A stretch of 64,000 nt of DNA. Source: Owenia fusiformis (lineage: Eukaryota > Annelida > Polychaeta > Sabellida > Oweniidae). This document shows, piece by piece, positions 8,047-58,509 of this stretch. The stretch is taken from NCBI GenBank assembly GCA_903813345.2, contig CAIIXF020000006.1, forward strand, positions 24,311,936 to 24,375,935, given 5' to 3'. The notes under the pieces are model-generated. The model saw only the letters and a program-made list of their open reading frames with translations, did no database searches and was not told where the DNA came from. Made by a program: the position numbers and the translations under genes. Each line of letters starts with the position of its first letter. Positions within the stretch are counted from its first letter, which is position 1.

Positions 8047-8095
8047 TAAGTAAGTATGAGGGCATCCTCACTAATTTACTCTTGCGAGTCAGTTT

Positions 8096-17000: not shown

Positions 17001-17170
17001 CTACAACCTCAAAAACTGAGCACACAACCACAACAACTAACCTTAAAGCCACAAAAATTGAACCCACAACCACAAATACTGAACATTCAACAACCACAGC
17101 TACTGAACCTTCAACCACATCAATCGAACCCACAACCACAACAACTGAACCTACAACTGTAAGAACTTAG
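8096..17170 (+). CDS. Secreted PL8 polysaccharide lyase with mucin-like tail, copy 2
   Basis: Exons 8096-8816, 11067-11242, 11838-11993, 13217-13458, 13599-13702 and 14793-17170 join in phase (3777 nt, 1258 residues). Two ATGs are possible, at 8096 or 8126; the second gives a cleaner signal peptide (MRLSMHFLWLAMIIM...). The alpha-helical domain has NTDWNWWGYQIGVP (the paired Trp of PL8 clefts), SASNLANR (expected catalytic Asn), DYCIHVHN (expected His) and YNGGYG (expected Tyr). Then come SVGRNI (Arg) and SCRTVRPE (Glu). The beta-sandwich follows with PGTTVEY, GAAAMDY and WFFFDDEVVCLG. Relative to bacterial chondroitin AC lyases there is an insertion of about 15 residues between His and Tyr, and a second cleft Arg is replaced (GRNIDD for GRxISR). 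Residues from about 790 are Thr/Pro/Glu repeats, likely O-glycosylated. The tail ends at an in-frame TAG after which the repeat frame stays open. The product is probably an extracellular glycosaminoglycan or algal/bacterial polysaccharide lyase. Confidence 0.88.
8991..9623. mobile_element. MITE with GTTACGCGG ends in PL8 intron 1
   Basis: Starts GTTACGCGGTA and ends with TACCGCGTAAC. CTCTTT flanks both ends, a likely target duplication. The interior is built of repeated variants of CACCTGCGGTATATGGCAT in both orientations. A related copy in opposite orientation is at 24834-25438. Confidence 0.7.
10010..11066. repeat. 101-bp minisatellite derived from a splice acceptor
   Basis: About 10.5 head-to-tail copies with a period of 100-102 bp. 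The phase mark ATGCACC falls at 10112, 10213, 10314, 10415 and so on. Each unit contains TTTCTGTCATGCAGGGAGGG and GAGCC(A)ACTACTAT, matching the real acceptor and first 45 or so bases of exon 2 at 11055-11110. The array ends exactly at that exon. All copies lack one G present in the real exon start, so a decoy acceptor would shift frame and reach a stop. Confidence 0.9.
12497..12855. mobile_element. TIR element in PL8 intron 3
   Basis: Inverted ends: CTTGTGGAGGTAGAGGCTAA near 12507 and its diverged reverse complement ending near 12840. GTGTCA/GACACC blocks are mirrored inside. About 360 bp with no coding frame. Confidence 0.6.
13822..14220 (+). pseudogene. Ty3/gypsy integrase fragment, split by a MITE
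   Basis: In intron 5 of PL8 copy 2, 13828-13911 reads GPYHQAGNGQMERFNKTMEN and continues to LLTTLNQ. This is the conserved end of the integrase core of Ty3/gypsy retrotransposons (family pattern PYHPQGNGQVERFN). The MITE at 13913-14166 interrupts it, and the frame resumes after it with QENKKKWPMYL. Only about 40 residues remain; no LTR, protease or reverse transcriptase is seen nearby. It is a dead fragment. Confidence 0.65.
13913..14166. mobile_element. MITE inside the gypsy fragment
   Basis: Terminal inverted repeats GATTGGCTCCCA and TGGGAGCCAATC. GACGCTAAACCAAG on the left is repeated as GACGCTCAACCAAG on the right, a target duplication of about 14 bp. Confidence 0.65.
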
Positions 17171-21675: not shown

Positions 21676-23893
21676 CTAAGCTTTGATTGCTAACAGAGAA
21701 TCTACAACCTTGGCCATTGTAACATCTGGGGCCTTTTCATTGTGATCGTTTCCATGAGTATCTTCGTTGTGAACTTTATTTTCCGGTGCACTATCATTTT
21801 CAGGATCAGTGCGCTCAACATTGTTCTTATCCTCAGTTGCCAGGTCATCCCCTGGCATGGTGTTATCATTGGTGCTTTCAGTCGCATCAGTTAAATCAGT
21901 TTCAGCATCAATACTCTTTTGAATCAGAATCGGCTCATCTTTAACCAGCTCTTTACTATTTTCTATTTCCACCTTGAGCTCTGTCGGACTGATTGCATCT
22001 TCAATAGGTTGGGCGTCATCCTGGTGATTTATACCCTCTTCAGGTTTATCATCCGTATTAGATTCATCTGGCTGTTTTTCTTTGGTGTCTGTCTTTGCCC
22101 ATGGAAGAACATGTCCCTTTCCAAATATGAGGTACACTATGATACCAGAGACCACGATTCCTCCATTTATGTAAAACATCTGCCTCCATTGTAAACTTGT
22201 ATCATCACGTGTTATGTATCTTAAAAGAAGCGGAGCAGCAACGCCAACAGCATTTTCCACTGCATCAGATATACCAGCAATGATACTTGCGAATTGCGGG
22301 GCGATGTCCAGAGCATTGACTGACAAAGAGACGATTCCAAACGAAGAGAATGCACCAGAAATGAAGAGTAAAGCTAACATTACATTCACCTGACGACAGT
22401 CCAGATGTGAATATGCGATTGCAATCGGAACTGAGATTGTTGCTATAGCAACAAACAGTTTTCTTGTTGCCACGGTAGTGAGAATTTTCTTTTTTCTTAG
22501 AATGTCTGATAAGAGAGATACTATTATTGCTGTTATAACAGTACAGCCAGCTAACCCACAAGAGACCAGTCCTATTTGAATTGGAGTCAACTGGAATATC
22601 ACTGTAAGAAATGTTGCACCCAGTGTGTTTACCGCTACAATTGAAAATGCCCCTGTCGTTCCAGCAAATATTAATGCTAAAACCGCCTTTGACGTAATAA
22701 TATCTTTCCAGGGGATCTTCTCCAATCGGACATCTTTTCCAATACTGTTTTCTATAAACATTCTTTCACTGGAGTGTATTCTTGGGTGTTGGCTTGGTGA
22801 ATCGTATGCTGCATAGACCCATACGAATACCCATACTAATGTGACACCACCGAAGACATAAAAAATGGCAGACCATCCCACAGTCTCGCATAGGATACCA
22901 GTGACTAGAATCGACACTATGCCCCCTAACAACGTTCCTTGAAACGAGATCGTAACCAGCTTCGTCTTCTCAAATTCTGGCGCCCAATTTGCCCAAAGAG
23001 CTAAATAAACAGGTCGGATCATATCAGTAGCAGCCCCCGTCGCAAACGTCATCGCAATCATTGCCCAAGCACCACCCAATCTTGCGATGAATGGAGTCAG
23101 CATTGTCAACGTTCCTGCGATGAACAACGAAATTCCAATGACTCTCTTAGGCCCCCAAATTCTCGCTAGGAATCCGCCAGTTAATCTTCCGATGGTGCCA
23201 CCGGAATAAATGCTACTGAGAACCAATCCCTGAGTCAATGCATCCCATTCAAATTCCGCTTCAGGCACCACTCCCTGAAAAGCAATTTTGTAAATTGCAA
23301 ATTGTACAAGAAGCAATAGTTCTCGAGTATGTACACGTGTTAAAGGATTTTTGGTTTTTGTATCAAGGAAAAATAATTCTAACTCATGGAACATAAGGTG
23401 TATACTATACAAGATATTTCAAGAGATTTCTTACTTGGAAAGATGCGTTTACTGCTGTCTGATTAGGCAGTTGTAATTGATTCTTCTGACATATGTAGAC
23501 ATCAGAGGTGCTGTTGTTACTCATGCCAGTCATGGTTGTGTTCGGAGGCTTCACCATACATATTATGGTCAACCCCATGTGACCATGTAAAGCCTGGACA
23601 CAGGCAAAACCTAACATCAACACCAGGGCAAGTTTAAGTCTTTGTGAACAGCACCCTGGAGACGTTTCGTCTTGGTTTATCGACCCTGATGATAACGCCC
23701 CTGTAGATATCTCTGCTACTTCTGATGATAATGCTCTTTTGGACGTCTCTTTGGTTGGTGATGACGCTCCTTTTGATCTCCCTTCATCAGGTGATAACGC
23801 CCCTTTTGATGTCCCTTCATCAGGTGATAAAGCCCCTTTTGATGTCCCTTCAACAGGTGATAACGCCCCTTTTGGCGTTGCCTCTGTAGTCAT
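21676..23893 (-). CDS. SLC17-like (sialin/VGLUT superfamily) transporter
   Basis: Two exons, 23893-23435 and 23274-21676, join in phase 0 (685 residues, TAG stop). It is a 12-TM major facilitator protein of the SLC17 organic-anion type. Signs are the glycosylated lumenal loop after TM1 (NTT, NNSTS, NQT, NAS), FEWDALTQGLVLSS, GGFLARIWGPKRVIG, VYLALWANWAPEFEKTKL, and YDSPSQHPRI in the central loop. SLC17 members carry phosphate, sialic acid, glutamate or urate; the substrate here is unknown. It is divergent: the family's TM1 Arg (RxNLS) reads HGHMGL, and TQIPGG reads GRLTGG. The N-terminus has about five 10-residue repeats (SKGALSPDEGT). The C-terminal 140 or so residues are acidic and disordered. 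Confidence 0.85.
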
Positions 23894-30425: not shown

Positions 30426-30453
30426 CGATCCTCAAGAGTTTCCTGTGCCTGAG

Positions 30454-33400
30454 ATGGAGGGGGAACACACTGTCCCAGTGGGACCCCCAGACTATGTAGA
30501 AAATGGGGACCACCAAGAAAATCAAAACAACCAAGGGAATCCAGACAACTATGAAAATCCAGAAAATAAAGAGAATGCTAAATATAAGGACAACCAAGAA
30601 GATAATGAGAGTGATGAAAACCAAGAAGAGGAATATGGTGAAGTTATCCAACTTGAAACAGAAACAATACCAGAATTGGATGATTTGAATATACCTGACC
30701 AGAAAACACAGGAAATGAATGAAATATTTAAAAAGTTCATTTACGTGCAATTAAAAAATGATCATCAGATTCAAGACATTATTCCAGAAGGCGGAGGTGA
30801 GCTCCAGTCCAGGTAGGTTTTTATTATGCTAATATTCCAAAGTTGATAGTCATGAATGAGCAAATAAAGCAGATGCGAGTAGGTAGTTTAGCAGTTTCAC
30901 CACCAGGTGGCTTATTCGGGTCAGATAACATGGCGGGTATACAAGTAGTAGAAAGTTCCCTTTAACTTAAATCACATCTGTTTAATGGTTCAATTTTCCC
31001 TTATGTAATTAATAGTTATGCAAATTGAATGTCCAGTAAAAGAAAATGTTATCTGTCCAATACAAAAAAAGATATTTCCCTTTTTGTGATTTTGTAACAT
31101 GGGGTTTATGGAATCAACCCAAACTAGAAGTCACATTTTTCAAAATAAAAAAAACTATTTCAAAGTTGATAAACAGTTTTTGAAACCATATTTCTAGAAG
31201 AACTTTTACATGTACAGCGCTTGCATTAGGTTAGAAAATTTGTGAGTCCCAAGGACGCAATTTTTTTAAAAAAAGTGTGTCCTTTGAAAAAAAGTGTGTC
31301 CCCTATTTCTAGCCCGTTTTGAGGTATAACTTCTTGCCGTGAAGTTAAAAGGAAGTAAACGTTAAGTACGGACTGAATAAATGCATGTTCGTTCATTCGA
31401 CAATGAATACATTTTATTTCATGAATAACCTAATATTTGTTTCTGAATAGGAAAAACTGTGGCGTGTCATGGTTTCAAATCTAAAAATAAACAAAGTCGA
31501 AAAAATTCGAGAGAATCATGATTATTGGTAAATATTCAACATGTTGAGCCTTATTTACGATTCAAATAAAGGTGAGAGATCATAATTATTTGTTTTTGTT
31601 AGGTATCGTTGTAAACACATTGTAGTATTGACCTAAAAAAAATTTGCGTCCAAAAAACGGAAATATTTTCAATTTTTGTGTCCTCCAAATTATTTTTGAG
31701 TCCTTAACATGTACGGGACGCCGTTAATGCAAGCCCTGCATGTAGATTTCAAATAAAAACATCACTTTGACTGAATTTTTCATATCTAATGACGTAAATC
31801 AAGATTATTTCTACTCGAATCCAGTCTATTAGGGTAGCATTTGTCATGTACATTAGTAAAATTCAACAATACAAGTAATAATATAGTAAACGTAAAAGCC
31901 TCTTGTTTTTGGTGGTTAACATTGATTTAATGTAAACATTCAACATTTTAATAACACAACTTGAGATAATATCCCAGATGCGAGTAGAAATAGTCTTGAT
32001 TTAAGTCATTAAAAATTCACAATTCAGTCAAACTGATGTCATATTTGGAATCTACATGTAAAATTACATCTAGAATTGTGATCTTAAGAAGAGTTTATCA
32101 ACTTTGAAAATTTAATTTTCTTTGAAACTGTGACTTCTAGGTCGGGGAGATTCCCCATAGACCCCATGTTGTAAAACCACAAAAAATGGAATTAATTTTC
32201 TTGTGTTGGGCAGATAATATTTTCTTTTACTGGACATATTTTAATTTGTATAACTATCAGATACATAAAGGTAATATGAAAAGTGAACCACTAAAACTGA
32301 TGCATATTCAAGTTTAAGGGAATTTTGTAATACCCCGCCATGTTAATTCCCCCGAATCAGCCACCTGGTGGCGAAACTGGTAACTACCTACTCGCATCTG
32401 AGTAATTGTTACACAGTTCTCCACATGAAAACATTGCAAATTTTGTGTTAAAAAGTTAATATCCAGCAAGTTTTCTCGGCAAAAGTCTTCATGAATTCTG
32501 AACAAAAAACAAAAGATTTCAATGATGGCAAACAGAAAAGAACAAAAATGTTTGAAATGATGATGTTCTTAGGTTTAGTGGTAACATGCCCTATTGCCCT
32601 TTTTATTTACTAAATGATTTTGAACAATTAACAAATTTACATCACCCATATTCTACAATATTTAGCAAATTAATTCAACTGTTAATTTGTGAAATGTTTT
32701 CTTACTGTAGCAGACCTGGCGTAGAAGAAACATTAAGAGTTGCCAGACATCTTGCTACACTTGGGGATGATCTGGGCACAAGATATGATGCTCAGTTTAC
32801 AGAAATGATTAATGCCATCCCAATGTCTCCACAAACAGGGAGAGAAGCTTTCATTGGCATTGCTAGACAGTGAGTTTCAGGTTCCAAACAAAAGTTCTCA
32901 GTAAAGTTATTCAGTCAAAAAGAATGGCATCTGTATTTTAAAAAGCTGTTAATTCATAATTATTATGTGTATTTTGACCATTGTTAGACATTGTACAGGC
33001 CTCCATTTCTAAAAATATTGAAGCATGAACCATCTCACTTGGTAGGCAGCACCAAGTAGTTCCAATATTGAATTTTGCCTTTATTATTTTCACTGTTCAA
33101 AAAGGCAATTCATTTGTTTGCTAAATAAGTATTTGTTTCAAGTTTGATGATTACAGAAAAGACTATTTATAGTGCAAGTAACGTCTTATTTTTTGGGATG
33201 ATTTAGGATTGAAATAACAGTTAATGACTCTGAATTGCAGGCTTTTCAGTGATGGTGTTGTGAATTGGGGTAGAATAGTAACTCTAATGGCATTCAGTGG
33301 CCGTCTCAGTGTCCATGCAGCTCGTCAGGGGTCCGCAGCAATGGCACATAATATAAGTGGCTACATGACAAGGTTTTTTGTACAAGAAGACATCCCTAAG

Positions 33401-36400
33401 TGGGTGGATGATCACGGAGGCTGGGAAAATGCTTTTAAGTGAGTCATGCATTTACATAGCCAAGCAGAACTGCATTATGTTTATGGTATCATCAAATTTT
33501 CTACAAGTATTGTTGAAAACATAAAAAAAAGTTGGCTTAAGGCAGCAAGTGATCCAGAGCCTAGTTCCAAATGAAAATCCAAAATGTTTTAGACAATTTG
33601 CATAGATATTTCATAATATGTATTCTGTCCATATATTCTGCCCACAAACAAAAAGATGGGTAAAGCCCCATTAGTTTCAATACAATGCATTTACATTATT
33701 TAATGTTTGAAATTACCCTCTCAAGATTGCTTTATAATATTGCCCCCTGCTATAATGAAATACAGGGTGTTAAAAAAATGCAATTCAGGAAAGAAAGAAG
33801 AGACTGTGTGTGTATAGCTCCTGCTGTTTGTTAGTTGTTCAAAATACATTAGTATTAGAAAGATACGAAAAACGCATTCAGAGTTGACTGCCACAGCAAT
33901 AAACCCTAATAACTTTCTAACCATGGTGTTTTGGCACTTCAGATTTGACACGAATTATCTTCATATAATATGTGGTGAATTTGCGGAGTTTCATCAAAAT
34001 CACTTTGGGGACTTTACAGTCATGGTCAAAATGCTTTCTTAAGTCTGGCTGAACCAGGGTGTTTGAGTGCGTTTTGAAAGCATTTTGACCATAACTGTAA
34101 AGTCCCTGGAGTGATTTTGATTTCACTCTACAGATTTATCATGCATTGAATGAAGATGATTTGTGCCAAAATTGAATAGCCAAAACACTATGGTTAGAAA
34201 GTTATTTGGTTTTATTGCTGTGGCAGTCACCTCTGACTGCGTTTTTTGTATCTTTCTAATACTAATGTCTTTAGAGCAGTTGTCCAAGGCATCACGTTTT
34301 ACAACTAACTAACAACATGAGCTATACATAAACAGTCTTTTCTTTCTTTCCTGAAAAAATGAACACAATTGGATAAGTATTTACCAAGATATAGCGATTT
34401 CTTTGGGTTGCATTTTTTTAACACCCTGTAAGATGCTGTGTTTGTTTATTATAGCATGGGGTCGAAGGAAGAGGTAACATTTGATGTGCTACTAGATAGA
34501 CCAGAGTACTTAGAGGCTTACCAAAGGGCAAGAGAGGAGGGAACCCGTCATGTTTATCAGGCTAGGGTAATGATTGTTGGTCAATATGGTGTAGGGAAAA
34601 CTAGTCTAAGGAAGCGCTTGTTGGATGAAGGTTTTAGCAAGCAGTACAAGATCACTGATGGCATACAAGTGGACCCCTCAGCCTGCTCTGTAGATATCAA
34701 GAATTCTGTCATTTGGAAGACTAAGGCAAAAGGTAATTCAATCAGTCCTTCATTACATTTGAAAAGTGCCATCGTTGTCATATCGTGCCGATAGGTTGGG
34801 ATTCTGGTGAGCAGCACAACGAATCTTAACATTAAGATTTTAATCCACATGTCATAATAAAGGTCATCTAGTTATATAATGATGTAATTTCACATTAATC
34901 CAAATGGGAATCTTTGACAAATTAAAAGAAATCTTTTTTTTGTCAGTTTTTTGCATAGTTTATAAAGGGAGCTAGCCAAACTGACAGATGCCATCTATTT
35001 ATTAATCTGTATAGCAGCTGTTCTATTTATCTTGGTTTTGATATTATATTGTCAATGAAGAAGTATACATGTCTAAATTGAATCAAAATGAATGATTTCA
35101 GTAAATCTTCAGATGTTAAGAAAAATGTTTGATCTATCCTCTGGTCAGTTGAATATAGTTTTATTTCTGACATATTATTCCAGGGTTTAAAGCAGGAGAA
35201 GATACAAATGACCCTTTAGAAGTTTACGAGAGTGAAGTTGCTAAAAATTTATGGCACGCTTTCAATGATGGAACATCTGGTATGTATCTCTTTTTTTGAT
35301 AAGTTTTAGATAACATTTTTTTTTTTTTTTTTTTTTTTTAGATAACATTAGGTATATTTCTCTTTTTTGATAATGTTTTGATAATATTGCCAATGATATA
35401 TAGGGTAGCATATATAGTACAAATAGAAGACTTAATCACCAGTAGCATTGTAGATGTCCCTTGAGGTAGAATAACACGAGGAAGCCTAATTCCCTAGTTG
35501 CAATAACAATCTTGTTATTGTGCAATGGTCAGGAAAAAGCTGAAATCTGGGAAAAACTTCATATTTTCAGTGGATGGTCCCGTGATTCCTGTTTCTCAAG
35601 GTGCTAAAACAACTAATGGACTGAAACCTAAGGAGTCTCGTAAGTTCCAATTATTCAGATGTTGTAGATAACACTGTTTATCCCTATCTAAAATCTGTGT
35701 CAATACTCAATAGCCATCATTTTAGGCTCACATGATGAGCCTATGGAATCATCACACTGTGTTTGACTTGATTCCTTTGGTACTATGAAATCAAAAAAAA
35801 TTGTACATACATTTTTACATAAATGATTGCTTGATGATGTCCTCTATTTCCTGTTACATTCTGATATTGACTTCAGTCTACCATACAAATTTCTGGTTGC
35901 CAAAAAGGATTAATGCAAGACTTATGCTACTCTGTACATGTATTAATGTTTTTCAGGTAAAGGTACAGATACCATTGACAATGTGATAACAAAAGAGCAT
36001 GTCACTCCTGTGAATACAGATAAGCCTGGAACAAGCTCAGATTACAACAATAGCACCAACAATAGAGAGACTCTCAGAACTGATGGTGACTCTAGTGCCC
36101 CAGACTACATATCAAAGATACCTGAGAGTATTAAGAACAAGTTTCTGAGTTTAACCGAAGATGTCACAAAGCAGGTATGAGCTTACTCTTGTTATGTACA
36201 AATATGGTTGATCAAAAGCTCTGCATAAACATTTATGATTAGTTAAGAGATCTGTGTAAACAATCTGATTGGTTAAGAGATCAGTATCATGTGTTTCCTG
36301 TTTTATTGCAGATTCGTCAACTTGGTGGACTGAATGGGGATTCATCTGAAGATGAGAAGCAGTTGAAGTTATCATTCTGGGACTTTGGCGGCCAACATGT

Positions 36401-39400
36401 CTTTTACACAACGCACCAGACATTCTTGACTAACAGAGCCATCTATCTGTTAGTTGTGGACCTCACTAAGGACCTGGATGAGAAAGTTGAGACATTCAGA
36501 CAGTCCCGTTCAGGGACGAAACTTGACACTACTGCTCCAGAGACTGTCAAAGGTGGGTACTCAGTTCTCTAGTTCTGGACTAAACTATCAGAAACTAGAG
36601 ACAGTGAAAACCTTCAGAGATTTTTAGTGATTCCTTTTTACATATCTATCCACATTCAAAATATCTGAAATTGATGCACGAAAGCTGGGAAGTTGAAATA
36701 AAATCTACCATAGTAGGGGGAAAATTTTATTTAGTAGGGGGAAAATTTTATTTACACATTCATATAACATGAGGTGGGAATTCCATCTCTTAAAGATGTT
36801 CATCCACACAATTTGCTATTTTAGACTACCTTGACTACTGGTTGAATTCAATTCACACTCATGCTGGGAAGTCATCTTCTGGGTCAGAATCTCTGAGTCC
36901 ACCTGTCATAGTTGTATGCACACATAAAGATGCTGTCAGTATGGTAAGCCAGTACTAAACCTGAAACCTTTTATGGCAGAAATAAATCTAAATCCTATGG
37001 TTCGGATTTTTGTGTCACTCCCAGAAGTGGTTATGTTGTTACGGCTTCCATTTTGCATCCTCCAATCACAGGGCTTCAAAATCCAGAATATACATTCTTT
37101 CTTTTTACCCCCTGCAATAAGTAGTTAGCATTTCCCCGATTAAGAACTCGCAATCTGATTGGCTGTCGCAACACTCCGACAGAAATCATATATAAATCAT
37201 TACTCATAATTACATCACGTGATTCAGTTTAATCGGGCGCTTCCAAATTGGTTATAGCAGGGGGAAGAAGGAGGTACGGATTCTGGATACCTGCTTAGGA
37301 GGATGCCATTTTGGTGTCCAGTGTTTTTGAGTTTGTCATTTGGTGTCTGGAACAAATGGTTCACTTTTCTCACCATTGGCAATGACTTACCAGATCGTGA
37401 CATTTTGTCATGCATGTCACTGGGTTGTCCTAGATATTACAATTTTGTAATAAAATCAGAAACATTTTATATGTCAATAACCATAGAATAGTGAATATTT
37501 GTATATCATTAAAATACATGGTTGTCTATGTTCTCAGAAACATACTTTTGTATGTTTCATTCATTATGTATTCATTATGTATATTTCTTTCATTTGATGC
37601 AAAATATGAGTAGTTCTTTTAAAATCTAAAATATATAAATATGTATTTCAGGAATATCACATGAAGCAGCCATACATGTCCAGATTTAAAGCATGGTGGC
37701 AAGGAGCTGTACTCTATGACACAGAACAACAGTCGCAACATATAGAGAACTATTTTCACAAGATAGATATGAACCTACAAGACAAAGTTTACTATCGTCA
37801 TGTCTGCCCAAGATACTTCGCCGTTGATAACCAATACAACGGAGATCCAGAGCTTGACTGTCTGAAGAAAATGATCGTAAAACTCGCAGAAGATCAAGGA
37901 TTCTGGGGGCAGGAAGTACCCATTAAGTGGCTGGTGCTTGAGAAGAAGCTCCGTGAATTCAAATTGGAAACCCCTGATCGAAAGGCACGGCATTTTCTTG
38001 AGTTTGATGAAGTGGCAGAGATTGGTTTCAAGGAGGGTATGGACGAAGACTCAGTCAGAGCTTGTTTGGGATTTTATCACTCTGTGGGAGACATGATTTA
38101 CTTCAATGAAATCAACCTCAATGATCTGGTGATACTGGATCCTCAGTGGTTGATTGATGTTTTCAAAAGCATTATAACAGTACCAGAATTCCACAGGGTT
38201 GTAAGTGGGAGTGGACGGAACAGCCGTATCTACTGGGAGAAGCTTGATAAAGAAGGACTGCTCGAGGAGGAGTTGATTGACATTGTATGGGAAGAGCAAA
38301 ATACTGAGATATCCAATCACAAAAAAGTATTGATAGAATTTATGCAAAAGTTTGACTTGATTTGTCCATTGAAAAATAACCCAGGATATAGTCAAAAGAA
38401 ACGACAGTTCTTTGTGCCTTGTTTGCTGCCTAAGCCGGAACCTAGTGATATAATTAAAGACAAACCATTAGCTGGCCCTACAATATTCTACCAATTTACC
38501 TTCCTCCCCAATGGACTCTTCCATAGACTAGTTGCCAACATCTGTCTTGAAAAGAGCTGGCCTTTATATGGGAAAAACGTGTTCTTTGATTACGCTAGAT
38601 TTGAAGTTGGTAAAGGGGCTCATGTGTTAACGATCCTAGCCCAAGACAATCACCTGGAATTAAAAATTCATACCTTATCCGATGATGTAACGGATAAGGA
38701 CAATAACTTTATGTGTATGAGGATACGCAAGGATATAGAGGCAATGCTGAAGTCCACGATACAGAAGTATTGTCCCAGTGCAGGCTACAAGGTATCTGTG
38801 AGGTGTAGATGTCCTGGGGTGCCAGAAGAGAACCAACTCATCGTGCCTGTATCCGAGATGGATATCATCTTAAGCCAAAATAAGCTGTGTGAACTTCATC
38901 ACAATACCATTAAGCTTCAGTCGTATGAACTATGGTACCAAACTGTACAAATCGTAAGCATAATTTTACATATATGTCATGTTCATAATTAACATTTGTC
39001 AATTTAGATTCAAAAGCTGGGCCACTACCTCAAAACAAATTGTCACTGTGAAGTTGAATTTGAAATCATACCCACCCTTTTCAAATCCTGTTCGCACATA
39101 TAATTTTAGCTGCAGTTTTGATCTTAAATGCCCAAAATTAATCTTCATTTGGATCAAAAACCAGTTGTTGCAAAATATTGCCATTTTGAAAGCACTTTGG
39201 ATGTGACTGGATGCACTTGACAAAAAGGGAAATGAATGAATACAGGAAATTGATGCCTTATAACAATCCACAATTTATGCATTGTAGTAGTACAGTATAT
39301 GGTAAAACAGGCAAAAGGAATGAAAGAAATAAGCACTTATTGGAACTTGTAGTTACCATGGATATGTTTTTTTGTTGTTGTAAAACAAGTACTATGCATT

Positions 39401-42400
39401 TCAGTTCAAACCAGTGCCAACTAAACCAAAGGAAGCTAAACCCAAACCAACAAGAAAGAAGTCAAGTAAAAAGTCCAAAAAACAAAGACCAAGTACGTGC
39501 AAGTTTGTTTATTTACTTATAATACACTGGTAAAACACTGAATAATTGACAGTTGTATTTTTATACTTTAGAATATTATTAGATAAAAACATATACATTT
39601 AATATTGTCTGCTCATTTGGCCTGTTTGATACAATGTTGAAAATTCAATTTAAATAGCAGAATTAGTTTAAAACTGAAATTAATGGCAGCCTATGAAAAA
39701 TACCACATACAAATAAAAGAATACTATGTACATTGCACAATGTGTACCATTTTATTGTTTTATAGTTTTCACCTAGAAAACAATTACATTCTGCTATAAG
39801 CTTGACTATTTGAAGCTATCAGTTGAGTGCAAATATTAGCTGGATAAACTTGAATCACAATCTAGGTATATTGGGAAGTGAACAGTTCACCCAGTCTACC
39901 TCTTGAGGGGTGAACAATTTGTTAATATGAGAACATTATTTTAGGTGATACAGATGATGAGCTTTCTGCCTCAGACTCTGACTCAGATGGCTCTAATCTA
40001 GAAGATACTGACAGTGAAGACAATGAAGATGATGGTGAACTTCATGTCCACAAATCTACTCAAAAATTCTACAAGAAATGGTATAACCACAAAGGGGTGA
40101 GTACTTCAGTATTCCTTTTATGATAAGTTGGAAAATTGTAGATGATCTTTTGACCAGTGGAGTACATAATTACAAAGATTTTCCAATCTGACTCGTGTCT
40201 ATATAAGGAGATGTACTTTGCAGTAACTGTTTTAAATCTGAGATGACGATATAGTGAAAAATATTTGAAAGACTTCATTGCGAAAACTATTAAGAGATTA
40301 ATCATAATTAGCATAAATGGAGAAGATCTTGTAACCTCAGGTGAACAGCAAATACATATTATACCAGGCTTCCAGTCTTTAAATTCTCTAAATTCTAAAA
40401 AACTTAATGCGAAGAGCCTTCAGTTTGCACCATCAACTAACTTTTGATATGAATAATAAAAAATACCAATACTTGAAAATAAGTTTTTATTGTTAAACAC
40501 TGATTCTATTCATTCCAGGCCTATTGCAATATTTCAATGCCAAGAGGGCGGTGTTTAATCATCAATAACTACACCTTTAAACCGAAAATGTCAAACCGTG
40601 ATGGCACAGAGCACGATTTGAAGAGACTTAAACAACTATTCAAAATATTCAAATATACAGTTGTTGTGAAAACTGATCTTACTGCTGGAGATATACGAAA
40701 AGTATTAATTGAAGAAAGAAATCGCAGCATACATGCCATGTATGATTCGTTTGTTTTGGTGATTCTCTCACATGGCACTGTGGATGCTGTATATGGTGTG
40801 GACAAAGAAACAGTACCATATAAGGAGATTTACAACTTCTTCAATGGGGAGAACTGCAAAAATCTAGTCGGCAAACCCAAAATCATCATAATCCAAGCTT
40901 GTCAAGGCAGTAAGTTGTATAAAGATATCTACTTTTAAAAGGGCTCCAAGCGAGCGTGCATTAGTCTACATGTAATATACCAAAGTTTCAAATTTGTAAC
41001 AGCCTGTATTTTGCACCATCACAGATTTCCATGCATAGTTTCTCCCCTGAAAGTACAAAGGCTTGAAAAAAATGCCTTCCTTGTAAGTGGTATGACCTGT
41101 GAAAATTATATGAGATGCACATACTTTTAATTTCTATGTACTTTAAGGTAATTACTTTGCTAACTTTGTGAGCAGTTTGATTCAAACCTGATATTTAGGT
41201 TTGCAATTATAAAAAAATATCTGCAATTTATGTGTTATTCAGGACTTTTCAAGATTGATGTATTTTTGAATCAGAAATGGGCAATGAAGGTTTATTTTAT
41301 GTTTATTTGAAAAAAATACCTGAAAAGTAATACTTGAAATAGTGGGCTATTTCAATAGGATATTCATGACATTATCCTTGAAATATTACTCTTCAGACAT
41401 TACTTTTCAGACATTTACAATATGTTTTGAATATACCCTTCTGGTATCCCTTAGACATTATCCTTGAAATATTACTCTTCGGACATTACTTTTTAGACAT
41501 TTACAATATGCTTTGAATATACCCTTCTGGTATCCCTTAGACATTATCCTTCATATCTTTATCTCTGTGATCATTATTCAAGGTAAGAAGGATGATGGAG
41601 CTGTTGCCGATGGTGACGAGGATGAGAACATTGATGATATAGACTCAAGCTCTCCCCCTGAACCAACTATTGAATCGGCATCAATGGATGAGGCTCCAAC
41701 ACCTCTAGATGAGGTAGACAGTCCTGATGGAGCACAGAAATCCCCAACCATGGCAGACTTCTTCATAGCTACTGCTACAACACAAGGTATATAATATTTC
41801 ATTTCAAATTTTATCAGTTAAATGAGTTTGTTCTTAAGGTTTGTTATGTGCAACATCTACTCTATACACCTTGTGCAAATTTTTTCCAAATAAAAGTATG
41901 GTTAATGAAAAGACAGAATTAAATCCTGCGCTAAGGGCTGATGTGAAAATGTCAGTCCACCCTAGTGAGGATTGAACTTGCGACCCCTCACTTCCCGGGC
42001 GATTGGTCTACCACTAAGGACCAGATTTTAAAGGTCGGCTTGCTCTTATTGCAGATTATGTGTCTTGGCGTAATAAAGAAACAGGAACCTGGTTCATACA
42101 AGCCTTGGTGCACATTTATAGAAAGTATGCCAGCAGAAAGGATATAAATACTATGTCTACCAAGGTAAATATACAGGGTGTCTTTAAAATAATTTTACAA
42201 TTCTAATACAAAGTCTGTGTAGTGTAGAGACTTTATGGATATTACCTAATTATTAGACTCCAGATGTAAATCTGGAGTCTATTGTTTTCGTCAGTATTCT
42301 TCTTTATTATTGTTATTATTATTATTTTTCTCTACACGTTTTCTCAATAACTAGAAGACATTGAGTCAAGTCCTGTATACAGTCAATTTAGGTCCAGTAT

Positions 42401-44139
42401 CTAGTTTCTCGGAAATTGGGTCAATTTTTTATCCAGGTCAAAGGTCAAGAACTAGGTCAAATCTTGTATTTTCATCATTTTACCAATTTTCTCAGTCGTT
42501 CTTCAATATTTTTTCTCGGTCTTTTTTTCATCATGTTCCTTGGTAACAAAGCTAATTCCGAAAGGCAAATCGTTTTTTGATTACTCTTACCGATTTTGAG
42601 ATATGGCGTCCAGAAAGTAGGTCACACCAAAACGTGCTCCAAATTCAATGTATGAGTTATGAATTAGGGGTAGAATTATGTCAGGAATCCGAATCTGCAA
42701 ACCAAATTCCGATCCGACTTCCGGTTCGGAAGTTATGGCGTTTTGAAAACTCAAAAATCGCTAAATTTGGTGCCCATGTTAAGTCAATGGGAAAAAAGAT
42801 TTTTTTGAAGTGAAAAATACGAAATATAGACTGAGTTCAGCTTCATATAATCAAAGCCTTTAAAAGAAGGGGACCTCAAAAGGCACATAGCTTCAAAATT
42901 TGGACACCAAAATGCCTAGGTCAAAATCTAGGTCAAATTCGAAGTTTTTTCTTATTTTTGCGATTCTGACACTACACTTTTATTATATTCTTCGAAATTG
43001 TGTATACATGTAGCCAAGAGTGTGCTAATAGCGTTAGCCTTTTGCCGTCAGAAAGTATTTTGACCCAATTTTGAGATATGGTGTCCGAAAAGTAGGTCAA
43101 AATAAAAAGTTCTCCAAATTTAACGTTTGAGTGATGAATTAAGAATAGAATTTTCTCAGAAATCCTAATCTGCAAACCAAATTTCGATCCGACTTCCGGT
43201 ACCGAAGTTATGGCGTGTCCAAAAAGTAGGTCAAAATAAAAATTTTCCAAATTTAACGTATGAGTTATGAATTAGGGGCAGAATTTTGTCAGGAATCCGA
43301 ATCTTTAAATCAAATTTAGATCCGACTTCCGGTTCGGAAGTTATGGCGTTTTGAAATTTCGGAAAATCGATCTGATGGTATCCTGATAGAAAGTCAAGAG
43401 TAGATAAGAAAATATTGAAAAATTCATCCATCCTTCCTATCTGATCCTATCCTATCCTTCCTATCTATCCTTCCTTTGTATCCTTTCCTTCCTATCCTCT
43501 CCTATCATATCCTTTCTTCCTATTCTGTTCTATCCTATCCTTCTTTCTTATTCTATCCTATCGTTCCTTCCCATTCTATCCTATCCTACCTTCCTATTTT
43601 ATCCATCCATTTTATTCTGGATGACTCAGCTTATTCTGGATGACTCAGCTTATTTTAGATGACTGGGCTTAAAAAAGTCTAGATCTGGAGTCTGAAATTG
43701 AACTTCGTTCAATTTCCAAAGTCTAGTTATATAAATATTATATTATTTGTGTGAAGCAGAATTGGTTTGGTAAGATATCCACACATGTAAAATATTTACT
43801 CAAGGGGCCTCCCAGCTGTTAATGCTTGAGACCAATATCAATATCAATGACAAACTGCCACTCAGTGGGAAATGTCTGGAAATCTTTCAATTTTTCTTGG
43901 TGCTATTTCTGTATATTTTCAGATCAACAATGTTGTTGCATAATGTACACTGATGTAGCCATTTCTGTATATTTTCAGATCAACAATGTTGTTGCATAAT
44001 GTACACTGATGTAGCCATTTCTGTATATTTTCAGATCAACAATGTTGTTGCATCAAATACAAGTATGTCTGGCAAGAAACAAATTCCAAGTTTCAACAAC
44101 CAGCTGACAAAAGACTTTTATTTCTTCCCTGGACACTGA
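30454..44139 (+). CDS. Bcl-2-like / Roc-COR GTPase / caspase fusion protein
   Basis: Sixteen exons: 30454-30812, 32711-32869, 33241-33438, 34455-34732, 35184-35279, 35571-35639, 35957-36174, 36312-36552, 36825-36943, 37652-38953, 39405-39492, 39945-40096, 40519-40909, 41583-41786, 42055-42164, 44035-44139. All have GT-AG borders and matching phases, giving 4089 nt and 1362 residues. Order: acidic low-complexity N-terminus (1-85), Bcl-2 fold (about 90-239), Roc GTPase (about 240-580), COR (about 580-800 and its C-terminal extension to 1013), basic Lys/Pro/Ser linker (1014-1042), Asp/Ser-rich acidic linker, caspase (about 1094-1362). No CARD, DED, LRR, kinase or membrane anchor is seen. Domains suggest an intracellular apoptotic or immune protease switched by GTP and a Bcl-2 groove. 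The start is the first ATG in the exon; upstream exons are possible. Two genes read together by mistake is the main alternative, but phase continuity and the absence of a stop or terminal exon between domains argue against it. Confidence 0.8.
30870..32400. mobile_element. Foldback element filling intron 1 of the fusion gene
   Basis: Arms of about 350 bp: CAGATGCGAGTAGGTAGTTT at the left and its near reverse complement ending CTCGCATCTG at 32400. Matching inner blocks include CACCAGGTGGC/GCCACCTGGTG and CATGGGGTTTATGG/CCATAGACCCCATG. It occupies 1.5 of the 1.9 kb intron. Confidence 0.75.
31215..31738. mobile_element. Nested MITE with 6-bp target duplication
   Basis: Ends CAGCGCTTGCATTA and TAATGCAAGCCCTG, flanked by CATGTA on each side. 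It sits in the loop of the 30870-32400 foldback element, so it inserted later or was carried with it. Confidence 0.7.
32708..32713 (+). other. NAGNAG tandem splice acceptor
   Basis: TAGCAG before exon 2 of the fusion gene. Both AGs keep frame; choice adds or drops one Ser just before the BH3-like helix. Confidence 0.6.
33761..34430. mobile_element. TA-flanked palindromic MITE in intron 3 of the fusion gene
   Basis: Ends TACAGGGTGTTAAAAAAATG and its reverse complement, with TA at each border. Long inner inverted homology. It ends 24 bases before the Roc exon, so the branch point of that intron probably lies in transposon DNA. Confidence 0.75.
34455..38953 (+). other. Roc-COR module (exons 4-10)
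   Basis: P-loop GQYGVGKTS (281-289, Lys287), G3 DFGGQ (483-487) preceded by LSFW, G4 THKD (572-575), and a G5-like FAVDN. About 130 residues between G1 and G3 are low-complexity and cut by three introns. COR follows in one 1302-bp exon: PIKWLVLEKKL, FYHSVGDMIYF, LVILDPQWLIDVF. This arrangement is that of MFHAS1-like Roco proteins, in which COR mediates dimerisation. There is no LRR upstream and no kinase downstream. Confidence 0.9.
41884..42012 (-). mobile_element. tRNA-derived SINE in intron 14
   Basis: On the minus strand a tRNA-like head reads TAGTGGTAGACCAATCGCCC (box A region) followed by GGTCGCAAGTTCAATCC (box B). Then comes a tRNA-unrelated body with GGACTGACATTTTCACATC. Minus strand relative to the host gene. 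Not a functional tRNA: the acceptor stem does not close. Confidence 0.55.
42252..43735. repeat. Repeat block in intron 15 of the fusion gene
   Basis: Bounded by TTAGACTCCAGATGTAAATC at the left and GATCTGGAGTCTGAAATTGA before CAAAGTCTAG at the right. The interior has three diverged units containing AAGTAGGTCA, ATCCGACTTCCGGT and GAAGTTATGGCGT. A TTCCTATCCTATCC microsatellite runs from about 43430 to 43600. Confidence 0.6.
43885..44060. repeat. 56-bp tandem triplication of the last-exon splice acceptor
   Basis: CTGTATATTTTCAGATCAAC occurs three times, with the AG at 43922, 43978 and 44034. Only the third leads into the true exon. From the first two the frame reads INNVVA then TAA. Confidence 0.9.
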
Positions 44140-52902: not shown

Positions 52903-55900
52903 ATGGACGCCATGGGTGATGGGCCAGAAGTCCATGATAGGAACATCGATGATATCCTGGCCCGTGCTGCAGATGGTTCGGACGAATCACAGTATAAAGC
53001 GGGCTTGCATTTCGAATCTCTTGCTAAGTCTGGAATCGACAAAGAGGCGAATGCCATCGAAGCAGTTCATTGGTTGATACAGGCCTCTAAACAATGCCAT
53101 GTTGGTGCAACTGAAAAATTGTCAGTGTGTACAGAGTCAGGTTTTGGTGAGATGTGCCTTAGATTTATTGGAGCTAGTCCTTCTTTTTACTAGACACCTT
53201 TCAACTTCTTCAAGCATTTTCAGACGATTCAAAGGAAATGAAAACACATCTCATGAAATGTATTAAATATTCTAGTAGTTAGGAGCTTCAAATGTAGCTT
53301 CAAAATGAGGCTCTCATAGTTGATCAGTTGATCATTTGCGTTGCTGGACATTGCCTTTTCGTAATTTTACCATAGGCTGAGGGCGATAGAAATCATTTTT
53401 AAATAAAGATGGCATGGTAATCGATCCGTGTTTATCTATTTTTCGAAAAAGATAAAACTGGATTCTATTGGTGCTGCCATCTTTATATCGGCCTAGAACC
53501 TATGAATTTTACATACTAGTATTATCTACTTTAAAGGTATAACCAAAGACAACAAGGGGGCTGTCCAATGGTGTGTTGACACGAACAATGTAGAGAAAAA
53601 ACTACGGAGTGCGGCAAGGAATATGTTTCGGTCTATTAATCCTCTTGCGCGGGCGACTGATCAACCACATGGAAATGGCGGAAAATTTGAACCAGCAATT
53701 CTGGAGATCACAGATGAAGAAAAGAAAATCTTAGAAAACTCAGGTTGATACCATATTGACAATTGAGAGTGATGATGATGCACTAAGTTATATATCTTAG
53801 CCTTGCCCAAGTCGGTATTTTCTGTACTTATCTGATCCTGAAAAAGTCTTGGTGAAAAGTGTATTTGTTTTTGACCGTGCATAACAATGAGCTAACGCGT
53901 CAGGGCTGTCGTTGATTGGTCAAATACCGATATGAACATTGGGTCGGTAAAGCACTTGGCTTTCTCTTGGGTACAAGGCGGTCATAATAGAAATCAAGAG
54001 ACCGACTTGGGCAAGGCTATATATATCTGTATTCACGAGTTCTGAAAGCAACTTATCTAGTCTAAACTTGATGCTTGACTGAATATTTTACTTTAACCTT
54101 TTAGGTATAATAGGTGATATTGCCGACCTAACAGAAGACGAGTTTGTCGAGAGGATTAGCGAGGAGTTGGAGAAAATGCGTGCTGGGGAAGCAGACGAGA
54201 CAAAAGTGATGGAGGAGTTTGAAAACTTAGATTTTACAATGAAGGTAAATTAAATTTAGAATTATGATACCCTGCTGCAGAGTCTAGTTAAACTGCTGAA
54301 AACGAAGCTCTCTTTTAAGGAGCGAATGGCTTATGACAATGTTCTCATAAAAATTGATGCACAAAGAATGCATGATTCCCGATAAGTCATTTCTATGATA
54401 TGCGTCATCATCCTTAACCATAAAGAAATGAATTTGAACATATGTTTCAGATAGTAAAGTACCCTGGTCTTTCAAGTAAAGTAGCCATAGATTTCGTAAT
54501 AGAGAATGCATCTGTGACGGATCTCCTGCTTGCTATGGTTCCAGTGGATCAAATCTTCGTGATCGTCTGCTTTATTCTGTACAGCCTCGTTTCCATTGAC
54601 ATGGTGACCTTCACGATTCCATTGTTCGTATTCTACATGTCTCTTGGAGTAATGATCACATCTACTTTGCAAATGTTCAAAGCAAGGAGAAGGACAAGAT
54701 CTTTGACGAATTGGTCTAATGTTTTAACTCGATTCCAAAGTAGCGTGGCTGAGGATACTGAATCAAAATTCCGTTGGAGTTCTATGCGGCCATATTGGAG
54801 CTTCTTCATCGGATTAATGGGATTGGTGATAACGTTTTCTATGACTGATAAAGGCTGGATACCATGCTCCGAACTGAGTATGATATCATTTTTCCTTTCT
54901 GCATGTTGTTTTACAGCATTGAGTGACCACCATGATCATTTCGCCATCGCTGCTATGGTGCTTGAGTTGATATCAAATATATCGTCATTCATTGACAAAG
55001 TTCCCGAGAACCATTGGGCAACTGAGACGCTTGAGATTCTCGTAACATCATGGTATAAGATCGAAGTATATGACGGAACTTACATCGATATCAGCGTCCC
55101 TTCGGTGTCATATATGCTGATAGGTTTGACTTTCCTACGTCTAGCCATGATGAATAATGGGCAAGGTGTGTATAAGCGTCTTATTCCACACTTGGTGTGT
55201 TTTTTCTGGTGGCAGGTTGGGGTAATGCTGTACAGATACGCCACCTGGTTTGGATTCGCTAGAGCTTGTGTAGGATGGTTAACAATACTCCTGCTACTAC
55301 CTTTATTTGGTGCTTTTATATTCTGCTGGGTGATCTACTATTCATGGTATATGCTGACACACAAATTGTTCCTACGTTATGCCACTACATGCGCTCTTGT
55401 TCTCATTCCAACATTGGTGATCATCATTGGCTTGAAACTGTCTTCCATCGATTGGTCCAAAATAACGAAAAGAGCTAAAATGATATTAGGCATATCTTGC
55501 GTGGTTTTATTGGTGTCGGCTCTCTCTGGTGGAACGATATACGCGATGTCTGATGAAGATGTTGATGCTATTAAAGAAATCAAACTTGTGGACTGGGATA
55601 CGTATGATGAACTATGTGGAAAATCTGCTTGGGCTAAAACAAACATTGCCGATGTTAAAATAAAATGTGCACATTTTGTCGGTGCTAAGGTTGCTTTTAA
55701 GGGTCGTATAAACGATGTTGATGTTAACATTGAAAACAGTGTAAAGAAGATTTTGGATTCATTTCCAACGGGACTTGCAGAGTGGTTTAAATGCGCTTAT
55801 GGACAGAGATATAACCCATGTTCCAAGGAAACTGATCCAAATGCTCTAAACTACTGTAGAATTAGAAGTTTGCAACCAAGAGCTTGTCATGTACAAAACC

Positions 55901-56229
55901 AGAACTCATACACGTTTAAGGTCAAAGTTCAAATTCTCGAAGACGATTCTCTCGTCACCCTGATTGCAGGCGATAGTTTTAAGGCATATATGCTGTCAGC
56001 AAAGGTTGGACACGAGATATCATTCCATGCGAAACTCAAGGATAATATAGGTGGTAGAGATCCTATCCTTCAGCTTACACACGTACACTCTGAGAGGTCA
56101 CGTGAGAACGAGAATGACTTTGATCGCGATGACGTCACGGAAGAGGAAACCTCTCTTCTTGATACATTGATTCGGTCTCTTGAATTTATGTCAGATTTCC
56201 TACTTTTTCCCCTTGTCATTCATGAATGA
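52903..56229 (+). CDS. WFS1: Wolframin
   Basis: Exons 52903-53146, 53537-53743, 54105-54244 and 54451-56229 give 789 residues (vertebrate protein 890). Wolframin is an ER membrane protein linked to calcium balance, the unfolded protein response and vesicle cargo. The N-terminal cytosolic part has a Sel1-like repeat (AGLHFESLAKSG...AVHWLIQASKQ) and a helical segment (KKLRSAARNMFRSINPLAR). A long last exon encodes about nine to ten membrane segments, including SFFIGLMGLVITFSM and LVCFFWWQVGVM. A Cys-containing lumenal domain (CHVQNQNSYTFKVKVQI) and a terminal hydrophobic stretch FMSDFLLFPLVIHE follow. A single giant last exon is also typical of vertebrate WFS1. The start is uncertain: an acceptor-like TTTCAG ends at 52897, and an ATG at 52813 would add a hydrophobic leader that looks like translated intron. 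The donor at 53744 (GTTGAT) is weak. Confidence 0.9.
53790..54028. mobile_element. Palindromic element in wolframin intron 2
   Basis: TAGCCTTGCCCAAGTCGGT at the left and ACCGACTTGGGCAAGGCTA at the right. A single arm occurs at 27658. Confidence 0.65.
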
Positions 56230-57312
56230 TAATCAGAATACTATCGGACAACGTTCAATCACTTTAATGCCTGACTATGATATTATGTTATACTTTAAGT
56301 TGATTCTCGTTAGCTTCACTGTGTAATGATACTTTAATTACATATAAACAACTAAATTATTAATGCCAAAGTCTAGGAATATACTGTAGATATAGGATTG
56401 TTATCATCACAGCTGACATGGTTTAATTGGGAATTTCAATTGTACTTATATTTTCAGCGTTTTAGATTTGAATAATTTTGAATTCAGTTTGAATAATTTT
56501 GAATTCCGATAAAAATATTAAAATAAAAGTAATCTAAAGTCGTTTACAGGTACTTTAATACAATAGAATCAAAAAAATTGTGCATGACCTAACACAGATA
56601 AATTTGGTAATAATGGTTTCTAAATATATGTGTTCAGACTCTTAGATAAGATAATTAACGGTAATGATACCAAAATAAAAGTGAAGTACTTTAATGTAAT
56701 AATATAATTATATTTACAATTAACCATAATTTTGTAGTGACTCACTAATAATTTAGTTAATGTATATAATAAACAGAAGTTATGTTACTCATTTGTTTTT
56801 TGTCCTACAAATATGTTTTGTGTTTCTATACTATTACAAATGAAGGTAAACTTACATGTAATTTAATATTCCAATTTTCTAATGCATCAATTCACTTATC
56901 ACTTAACCTGCAAGAATACGTTTAGTCAATTGCAACGATTAATCGATGGAATAACAAACTATATGAAGAGAACACAATTACCATACGAGACGCGGAGATA
57001 CAGTGTAATTTGGGCATTGTTGAACGTTTTAACATGTAAAATGAAAAGATACATGTAGGCAAAAACGTTATCTAGATAGATCTGCTGTTGGAATGAACAG
57101 AACAAATAAAACGATTGCATTGTAAAAAGATGGTTAGACTATACACATGATATAGAGATAGTTATGTCCGATAGAATTTCTGGGTTATACCAGGAGCTTA
57201 GGTCAAAACTAAAAACTGATTAAACCAGGAACAAGTATAAATCCAAGAAATTAAACCAAGATTATATTAAATACATGTCATTACAAATTATCATACGGGA
57301 AGCGGCTAGCAT
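56230..57312. other. Intergenic DNA between wolframin and the receptor gene
   Basis: AT-rich with no gene or repeat that I can support, apart from the poly(A) motifs. Confidence 0.45.
56522..56527 (+). terminator. Poly(A) signal candidate of wolframin
   Basis: AATAAA about 293 bases past the stop; further AATAAA motifs follow near 56673 and 56769. Confidence 0.4.
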
Positions 57313-58443
57313 ATGTCAGACAGAAACATGAAGGGACATGTTATTCATGTCATTGAATTCCACGAAAATGTCAAAAGTTCATTTGCTCCTGACAATGCAA
57401 CTGATCACGGTGGTGAAAACATTAATGCAATGGAAATTGAGGCGAAGAGTGATTGTAAAGATGATGTCGAAGATACTGAACTTCACAACTTTTGTTACAA
57501 CAAAACCATTTTGATGACATTTATGAGGCCGATTATGTTTTCCATGAGGTGCTGTGGATTATTTTACAATTTAAAACATAAACGACAAAAGGATGGAACC
57601 ATCAAAAGAATGTTCTCAAAATGGCAGTTATACTCGCTAATGATTACCATTGTAGTGACCTTGAATTGTATACGATCGGTGTGTTTCTACTTTGGCAAAA
57701 ACGAAATGGACCATCATTTGTTCTTCAAGTTAACAATGACTGTCTGGTGGGCGGAATGTTCTGCAAAATCTCTTAACCATTTTGTCGCTTGTGCGTTCCC
57801 TACAAAAATGCAAACTCTTTTTAAAGGATTTGACACAATCTTGAAGGGAGACACAACTGACGTTTATAAAGCAAAGATAGTGAAGCTTGCCAAAGTAACA
57901 ACTTTCAAACTCTGGGCCTTTTGCTTTATTAATGTCCTTGGAGCTGCTGTGTGCCTGTACGGGCCACATGAACTTCAAGATTTATTTAATCTTGCATTAT
58001 TACCAATACCCATCAATCTTCCAGTAGCCAGTGACATTTTCAAGGTCATTAATCTTATAATTCACTTCATAAACTCCATGGTAGCTATATTTCCTATGGG
58101 ACTGTATGCTATCGTTTGTACGATCCTCTATGAAGAGTTCAAAATCCTTTACAATGACTTCACTAAGGAGATCAAAGACGATGGTGACTTCGATGGCAAT
58201 TTGGAACAAATTCGCATGCGTCATCAACTACTATGTAAGATTGTAGAGAATGCGGACAACGTGTTTTCGTTCTACATCGCTGCAGTTTATGCTACTAACC
58301 TCCCGCTTGCATGCGTAGTGTTGTACAACCTGATCTACCACCAGCTACACATCTACCAGGTTCTTCTTAACTGTTTCTGGGTGTCGGTTGTCGTCACTCA
58401 AACATCTGTTGTGTCTCTTTTGGGTGGTCTGGTCAATAAAATG
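57313..58443 (+). CDS. Gustatory-receptor-like (GRL) 7TM protein, 3' exon not found
   Basis: One 377-codon exon ends at a good donor (ATG|GTAAGT, phase 0). After a hydrophilic N-terminus of about 75 residues come six predicted membrane helices, the last being QVLLNCFWVSVVVTQTSVVS. Between TM4 and TM5 the intracellular loop YEEFKILYNDFTKEI...IRMRHQLLCKIVENADNVFS carries the family pattern of insect Gr and animal GRL proteins (FxxxNxxl, then RxxHxxLCxlv). These proteins have the N-terminus inside and may be ligand-gated channels; the ligand is unknown. The seventh helix must lie in a downstream exon, and I could not find it before the window end. If the intron is retained, the frame adds 21 codons and stops at 58509. 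Confidence 0.75.
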
Positions 58444-58509
58444 GTAAGTTTCAATCTTTCGATCGCGACGGGGAGGGAATGTTATGAACATTGTGTATTT
58501 GCACGTTAG

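Follow-up and report, generated by a model that had tools for sequence, protein, structure and literature searches.

Intrinsic apoptosis, in the animals studied so far, has Bcl-2 proteins at one end and caspases at the other, with mitochondria and Apaf-1/CED-4 as the link between them. A locus of the annelid Owenia fusiformis raises the question of whether these two ends can be carried on a single polypeptide, with a GTPase between them. The locus lies on the plus strand at positions 30454-44139 of a 64,000-nucleotide (nt) stretch of DNA, hereafter the window, which corresponds to C6:24311936-24375935 of the assembly searched here (G000; 498 Mb, 525 contigs). An earlier note on this DNA described the domain order Bcl-2, Roc-COR, caspase. 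This order is not chance. Pfam matches to Bcl-2, Roc, COR-A and caspase follow one another along the protein, each above its own curated cut-off and with scores far above chance, and the BH3, BH1, BH2, P-loop, DFGGQ, THKD, SHG, QACQG and SWRN motifs were all located and are intact. We lean, with modest assurance, towards one gene encoding a protein of 1361 amino acids (aa) that consists of an acidic N-terminus, a Bak-like Bcl-2 domain, a Roc-COR GTPase, a charged linker and a complete caspase-3-like caspase.

The 16 exons with compatible phases that had been described were reproduced by an independent rebuild from the DNA, in which all 15 introns are GT-AG. The frame is open as claimed, for 4086 nt including the stop rather than 4089 nt; the difference is accounted for by the choice of acceptor at the NAGNAG of exon 2, where a start at 32711 instead of 32714 adds 3 nt in frame. 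An acceptor-like site at 30426, 5' of exon 1, suggests that a further exon may lie upstream.

The Bcl-2 part (Pfam 81.9 bits, 5.3e-23, aa 133-233) contains BH3 (VARHLATLGDDL, aa 129-140), BH1 (VNWGRI, 179-184) and BH2 (WVDDHGGW, 226-233), all three common to Bak (BAK1) and the window protein. Among the best 60 of 209 matches in the PDB, Bak is the top match (aa 82-241, E 3.5e-24), with 89 bits versus about 70 for Bcl-2 and 61 for Bcl-xL. The same genome also has a Bak gene at another locus (L021; 120 bits to Bak versus 62 to Bcl-xL); its last exon was not found within the 3.5 kb searched. A phase-2 intron precedes LFxDG at the same point in both genes. The Bcl-2 part is 39.6% identical to this Bak, compared with 21.9-32.7% to four other aligned Bcl-2 genes, and groups with it at 0.957 in a tree of six own-genome sequences with no outside references (seven loci were fetched, and the partial L022 and L023 omitted). 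As far as sequence and intron position record ancestry, these results show the Bcl-2 part to be of Bak type. Unlike Bak, the chain of the fused model has no membrane anchor (top 19-residue hydropathy 1.39) and runs on into Roc-COR and caspase; a tail exon offers an alternative, and joining exon 3 to position 34968 instead would raise the value to 3.32. Elsewhere in the genome, an open frame at locus L018 (C4:7585233-7585529, minus strand) encodes TIR, Bcl-2 and a hydrophobic tail, so another Bcl-2 fusion exists in this genome.

The GTPase has the tandem Roc and COR-A of Roco proteins such as LRRK2, DAPK1 and the bacterial Roco proteins. Roc is matched at 66.0 bits (4.6e-18; best stretch aa 467-519), its P-loop part as Ras (275-321), and COR-A at 73.2 bits (2.7e-20, aa 668-837). 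The P-loop (GQYGVGKTS, aa 280-288), DFGGQ (482-486) and THKD (571-574) are likewise shared with Roco proteins. In contrast to these proteins, the window protein lacks LRR and kinase domains by Pfam, has a long insert, encoded by exons 5-7, that separates the P-loop from switch II, and ends in a caspase. The nearest solved relatives of Roc-COR are 3dpu, deposited as 'Rab family protein' (E 3.6e-20), and then LRRK2 (2.9e-9); we take 3dpu and further matched chains to be bacterial Roco proteins.

The caspase is complete. Peptidase_C14 is matched at 204.8 bits (2.1e-60, aa 1101-1356), and the nearest solved relatives are caspase-3 structures (E 5.6e-39). Both p20 and p10 are present, with the His/Cys dyad and the substrate Arg residues (ILSHG at aa 1174-1178, QACQG at 1218-1222, DYVSWRN at 1291-1297). 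The alignment to caspase-3 covers the Arg of NRDGT, SHG, QACQG, SWRN and the C-terminal strand, features of caspase-3 type executioners, as is a DEVD linker. The canonical site of caspase-3-type specificity is DEVD, and the intersubunit linker here carries LDEVD-SPDG, which suggests activation by cleavage between the subunits at this site; the earlier note makes no reference to it. Executioner caspases have a short prodomain, whereas in the fused model some 1100 residues, Bcl-2 and GTPase among them, lie ahead of the caspase match, which starts at aa 1101. At the 3' end of the gene, tandem 56-bp units (2.7 copies, window 43905-44053) give the exon 16 acceptor in three copies. Use of the first two would stop the caspase early (INNVVA-stop), and a truncated p10 form via these acceptors is possible.

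The downstream two-thirds of this architecture, GTPase and caspase, can be compared with paralogues. Searches of the same genome returned 9 Bcl-2, 22 COR-A, 37 caspase, 67 Death and 38 CARD matches, and the paralogue set consists of nine fetched regions with COR or caspase matches (A-I), plus the flanks of some. COR is present in seven (A, B, D-H); C and I are caspase exons without COR in the fetched stretch. Paralogue B matches exons 4, 5, 8, 9, 10, 12, 13, 14, 15 and 16 with order and strand preserved; 6, 7 and 11 have no match in it, and its p20 is 84% identical to that of the window gene. Paralogue A has Roc, COR and p20; in paralogue G, COR and the linker are followed by 31 residues of p20, where the contig ends. 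Because the paralogues keep the same exon order, in B from Roc to the caspase end, the Roc-COR-caspase unit is firm and can be regarded as close to certain. The linker site reads MDEKD-YPDG in C, DEEED-SPGD in B and DEEEE-SPDA in I, where the aspartate is absent.

The paralogues and the window gene differ at their N-termini. Paralogues B, A and D each have a Death exon on the strand of the Roc exon, 20.8, 25.6 and 23.8 kb upstream of it, respectively. These exons are apparently entered and left in phase 1, and Pfam confirms both of those tested (A and B). From strand, phase and repeated spacing we infer that these exons are part of the Roc-COR genes. Own-genome searches gave no Death or CARD match in the interval of the window. 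The window gene would then be the Bcl-2 version of a Roc-COR-caspase family in which other members have a Death exon upstream and a phase 1 entry into the Roc exon. Paralogue F groups with the window gene in a COR tree (0.943), but on a long branch, and the p20 tree is nearly unsupported (0.03, 0.26). In about 24 kb upstream of the F Roc exon, inspection by eye, with no family search, found no clear domain among open frames of at least 55 aa. Sequence common to the upstream regions of A and E appears repetitive, with matches in the window in either orientation. At C6:35.56-35.93 Mb, duplicated exons for Death, Roc-COR and caspase lie clustered, the A p20 among them.

Whether the Bcl-2 part belongs to the same polypeptide depends on the splicing of exon 3 to exon 4, which is likely as judged from the DNA. 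The join is in frame, with fitting phases, across an intron of 1,016 nt. The alignment to Bak crosses the boundary (WENAF-NMGS to WVAALNLGN), by a few residues only. The likely Roc-exon acceptors of A, B, D and F lie 15, 12, 17 and 11 codons before a PEY-like triplet, compared with 15 in the window gene, and F also enters this exon in phase 2, as the window gene does. An in-frame alternative acceptor at 34500 scored -9.9 and was ruled out. Intron 3 contains an element at 33784-34430 that resembles a miniature inverted-repeat transposable element (MITE), with inverted termini and dozens of copies genome-wide (82 matches listed); about 370 nt of the intron is other sequence.

Several observations weigh against this reading of the locus and its product. 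By leave-one-out scoring, the exon 3 donor (4.7; next 5.2) and the exon 4 acceptor (1.4; next 1.6) are each the lowest of 15, by small margins, and 10 of 73 AGs around intron 3 outscore the exon 4 acceptor. That acceptor is directly followed by an ATG at 34456, and exon 3, if unspliced, soon stops (ENAFK-stop). The acceptor position seems to be kept only roughly among the paralogues, and entry into the Roc exon is in phase 1 for A, B and D, with E ambiguous. The intron after GGW, present in several Bcl-2 genes of this genome, is shifted by 14 nt here. COR-B is weak, at 13.7 bits versus a cut-off of 27. No caspase exon was found in the fetched stretches of four of the seven COR-bearing regions (D, E, F and H), and in its fetched region paralogue A has QACQS in p20 and no p10. 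Moreover, A, B and D arose by recent duplication (their COR is 83-87% identical), so that their Death exon pattern amounts to about one case, not three.

A further point against the fusion is a second in-frame partner for exon 3 inside intron 4. Joined in phase to 34968, exon 3 would gain KELAKLTDAIYLLICIAAVLFILVLILYCQ with a stop just after, and the predicted product is a tail-anchored Bak-like protein. Candidates were AGs at 33439-36000 joined in phase to exon 3 with tails of at least 15 residues. The hydropathy of this tail is the highest after any of 3250 plus-strand AGs of the window; none of the 3416 minus-strand AGs gives a tail that reaches 3.3, and when introns 3 and 4, minus the repeat, were randomised 3000 times under a first-order model, five versions reach 3.0 and one reaches 3.3, in controls that are simple and for a candidate picked after looking. 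Hydrophobic tails in intron 3 (34180, 34198, 34378) lie inside the mobile element and were set aside. Searched against the paralogue regions and the other Bcl-2 loci, the tail gave no convincing match (best E 2.3 besides itself). A Bak-like protein may truly end with the 34968 tail, which could then belong to a second gene, interleaved with that for Roc, or be an alternative ending of one gene. Because the tail exceeds its controls, our confidence in fusion transcripts was lowered from fairly good to a moderate expectation that they exist. The claim of one polypeptide holds up for the gene model, and the paralogues back its Roc-COR-caspase part, but the Bcl-2 join is the weakest-scored of the model and has a rival in-frame ending.

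The locus could instead comprise two genes on the same strand, interleaved or adjacent: a Bak-like gene made of exons 1-3, whose end is either the 34968 tail or ENAFK-stop, and a gene for Roc-COR-caspase with its start codon at 34456 and a non-coding 5' exon upstream. The in-phase tail, the weak splice signals at the join and the ATG abutting the exon 4 acceptor would all be explained, and AATAAA occurs at 33898 and AGTAAA at 35100, after the tail exon. However, the tail lies downstream of exon 4, so the genes would need to interleave; its acceptor is poor, and neither AATAAA nor ATTAAA occurs between the tail exon and 36697. The AATAAA at 33898 falls inside the mobile element, and what remains of intron 3 is short for a promoter. 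The exon 4 acceptor also fits the phase of exon 3, and the paralogues appear to splice their Roc exon near the same place. Two genes are a possibility that we take seriously and think doubtful.

Both outcomes might also arise at one locus, if exon 3 had two alternative splice partners: the membrane tail, for a Bak-like protein, and exon 4, for a soluble Bcl-2-Roc-COR-caspase. This explanation overlaps the single fused gene, and it accommodates one donor with two in-frame partners and weak signals at either partner. Against it, the tail could be a chance one, picked after looking; for the 83 AGs in introns 3 and 4, about 0.01 such tails would be expected (window rate 1/6666 AGs on both strands at >=3.3). 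We hold it tentatively, as a less probable account. That the join is non-functional or was made by assembly, as the mobile element in intron 3 and the tandem duplications with a three-fold acceptor near exon 16 might suggest, is very improbable given 4086 nt of open frame, intact motifs, the close identity of p20 to that of paralogue B and a position within a 40.8-Mb contig.

If the single fused gene is accepted, a mechanism can be proposed for its product, tentative and, taken as a whole, rather unlikely. Activated Bak dimerises by exchange of BH3 into the groove, and the Death domain is a homotypic assembly module. Since the paralogues have a Death exon where the window gene has Bcl-2, the N-terminal module is suggested to do the gathering, and both kinds of module could bring molecules together. 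A BH3 ligand or other stress signal would open the Bak-like domain; opened domains would pair by BH3-in-groove exchange, gathering molecules as the Death domain would in the paralogues; and the nucleotide state of Roc-COR would gate this gathering. Executioner caspases are already dimers and need linker cleavage for activation. An executioner-like caspase with a DEVD site thus fits cleavage in trans within a cluster, in which mutual cleavage at LDEVD-S would activate the caspase domains. The earlier note had proposed that GTP-driven COR dimerisation brings the caspase domains together. Roco dimerisation is usually assigned to the COR-B half, and a bacterial Roco with GTP is a monomer. The proposal was not adopted, because COR-B is only weakly matched here and the bacterial behaviour may imply the opposite direction. 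A fuller version would place a self-contained apoptosis pathway in one polypeptide and add the splice choice of exon 3. One product would be a tail-anchored Bak-like protein; the other would be a soluble GTPase-gated caspase that activates itself at DEVD and is gathered by the same Bak-type BH3-exchange module rather than by a Death domain, and mitochondria, cytochrome c and Apaf-1 would play no part. To this full version we give little credence.

Peptidases of class IPR009003 are presumably trypsin-like. Such a domain is C-terminal in brown-algal ROCO group 3, so that a peptidase follows ROC-COR as in the window protein, but in the text covered it is of another class and there is no Bcl-2 (PMC11378527). 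The same paper gives up to forty ROCO combinations in animals, and its main text, as distinct from its figure, contains neither 'caspase' nor 'Bcl' (PMC11378527). The amphioxus 'shortcut' hybrids (TNFR-caspase, LRR-caspase and Death-caspase, with cDNAs for several) join a sensor directly to a caspase, as the window protein does, whereas 'Roc', 'COR' and 'Bcl-2' are absent from the main text that describes them (PMC2575513). In the portions covered, coral and bivalve papers describe CARD, DED, DD, double-stranded RNA-binding or double-caspase forms (PMC4715348, PMC7836458, PMC10967218), and TIR proteins with ROC-COR are described in Aplysia (PMC9334734). As the earlier note supposed, no description of a Bcl-2-Roc-COR-caspase protein was found among the literature matches listed, nor of Roc-COR-caspase; figures, supplements and most subscription journals lie outside their scope. 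The parts are of known kinds, and the combination appears new.

Features of the Bcl-2-Roc-COR-caspase locus (window positions)
Feature	Position	Strand	Content
Exon 1	30454..30812	+	Acidic N-terminus, probably disordered; then start of Bak-aligned region (aa 1-120)
Exon 2	32714..32869	+	BH3 at 32739-32774; NAGNAG acceptor, alternative start 32711
Exon 3	33241..33438	+	BH1 33260-33277, BH2 33401-33424; unspliced read-on ends ENAFK-stop
Intron 3 MITE-like repeat	33784..34430		Occupies the bulk of intron 3; dozens of copies in the genome
Exon 4	34455..34732	+	Linker and Roc P-loop 34579-34605; ATG 34456 abuts acceptor
Candidate alternative last exon, inside intron 4	34968..35057	+	In phase with exon 3; acceptor score low (0.7)
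Exon 5	35184..35279	+	Roc insert
Exon 6	35571..35639	+	Roc insert
Exon 7	35957..36174	+	Roc insert
Exon 8	36312..36552	+	Roc switch II DFGGQ 36381-36395
Exon 9	36825..36943	+	Roc THKD 36920-36931
Exon 10	37652..38953	+	End of Roc, COR-A, weak COR-B
Exon 11	39405..39492	+	Lys/Pro-rich basic linker
Exon 12	39945..40096	+	Acidic linker; matched in paralogues B and G, weakly in C
Exon 13	40519..40909	+	Caspase p20: ILSHG 40762-40776, QACQG 40894-40908
Exon 14	41583..41786	+	Intersubunit linker, LDEVD-SPDG 41705-41731
Exon 15	42055..42164	+	Caspase p10, SWRN
Exon 16	44035..44139	+	Caspase p10 C-terminus and stop

The window also contains flanking genes. Polysaccharide lyase family 8 frames lie at 1092-2180, 8075-8827 and 14738-17167 on the plus strand (PF02278 1e-32 and, for 14738-15760, 2e-33; PF08124 1e-7), and Thr-rich stretches come after two of them. 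With 14738-15760 as query, a scan of bacterial and archaeal genomes, a collection without eukaryotes, found 60 loci (24-36% identity), many of them in Bacteroidota; a bacterial origin of these frames is possible. A major facilitator superfamily transporter is encoded at 21679-23418 (minus strand), and on the other side of the locus are Wolframin domains at 54424-56226 and a 7tm_7 chemoreceptor-like frame, just under the cut-off, at 57310-58506 (both plus strand).

The fused protein, if it is made, would mean that the link between Bcl-2 and caspase can be formed in cis, with a GTPase between, and that a Bcl-2 fold can act as a caspase-activating platform. The Death-type paralogues are a natural comparison, with the same switch and effector and another N-terminal module. 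A splice choice between membrane tail and caspase would, if true, be a new way to set the death threshold of a cell. Even without the Bcl-2 join, the Roc-COR-caspase family links GTPases of the LRRK2/DAPK1 class to a caspase effector.

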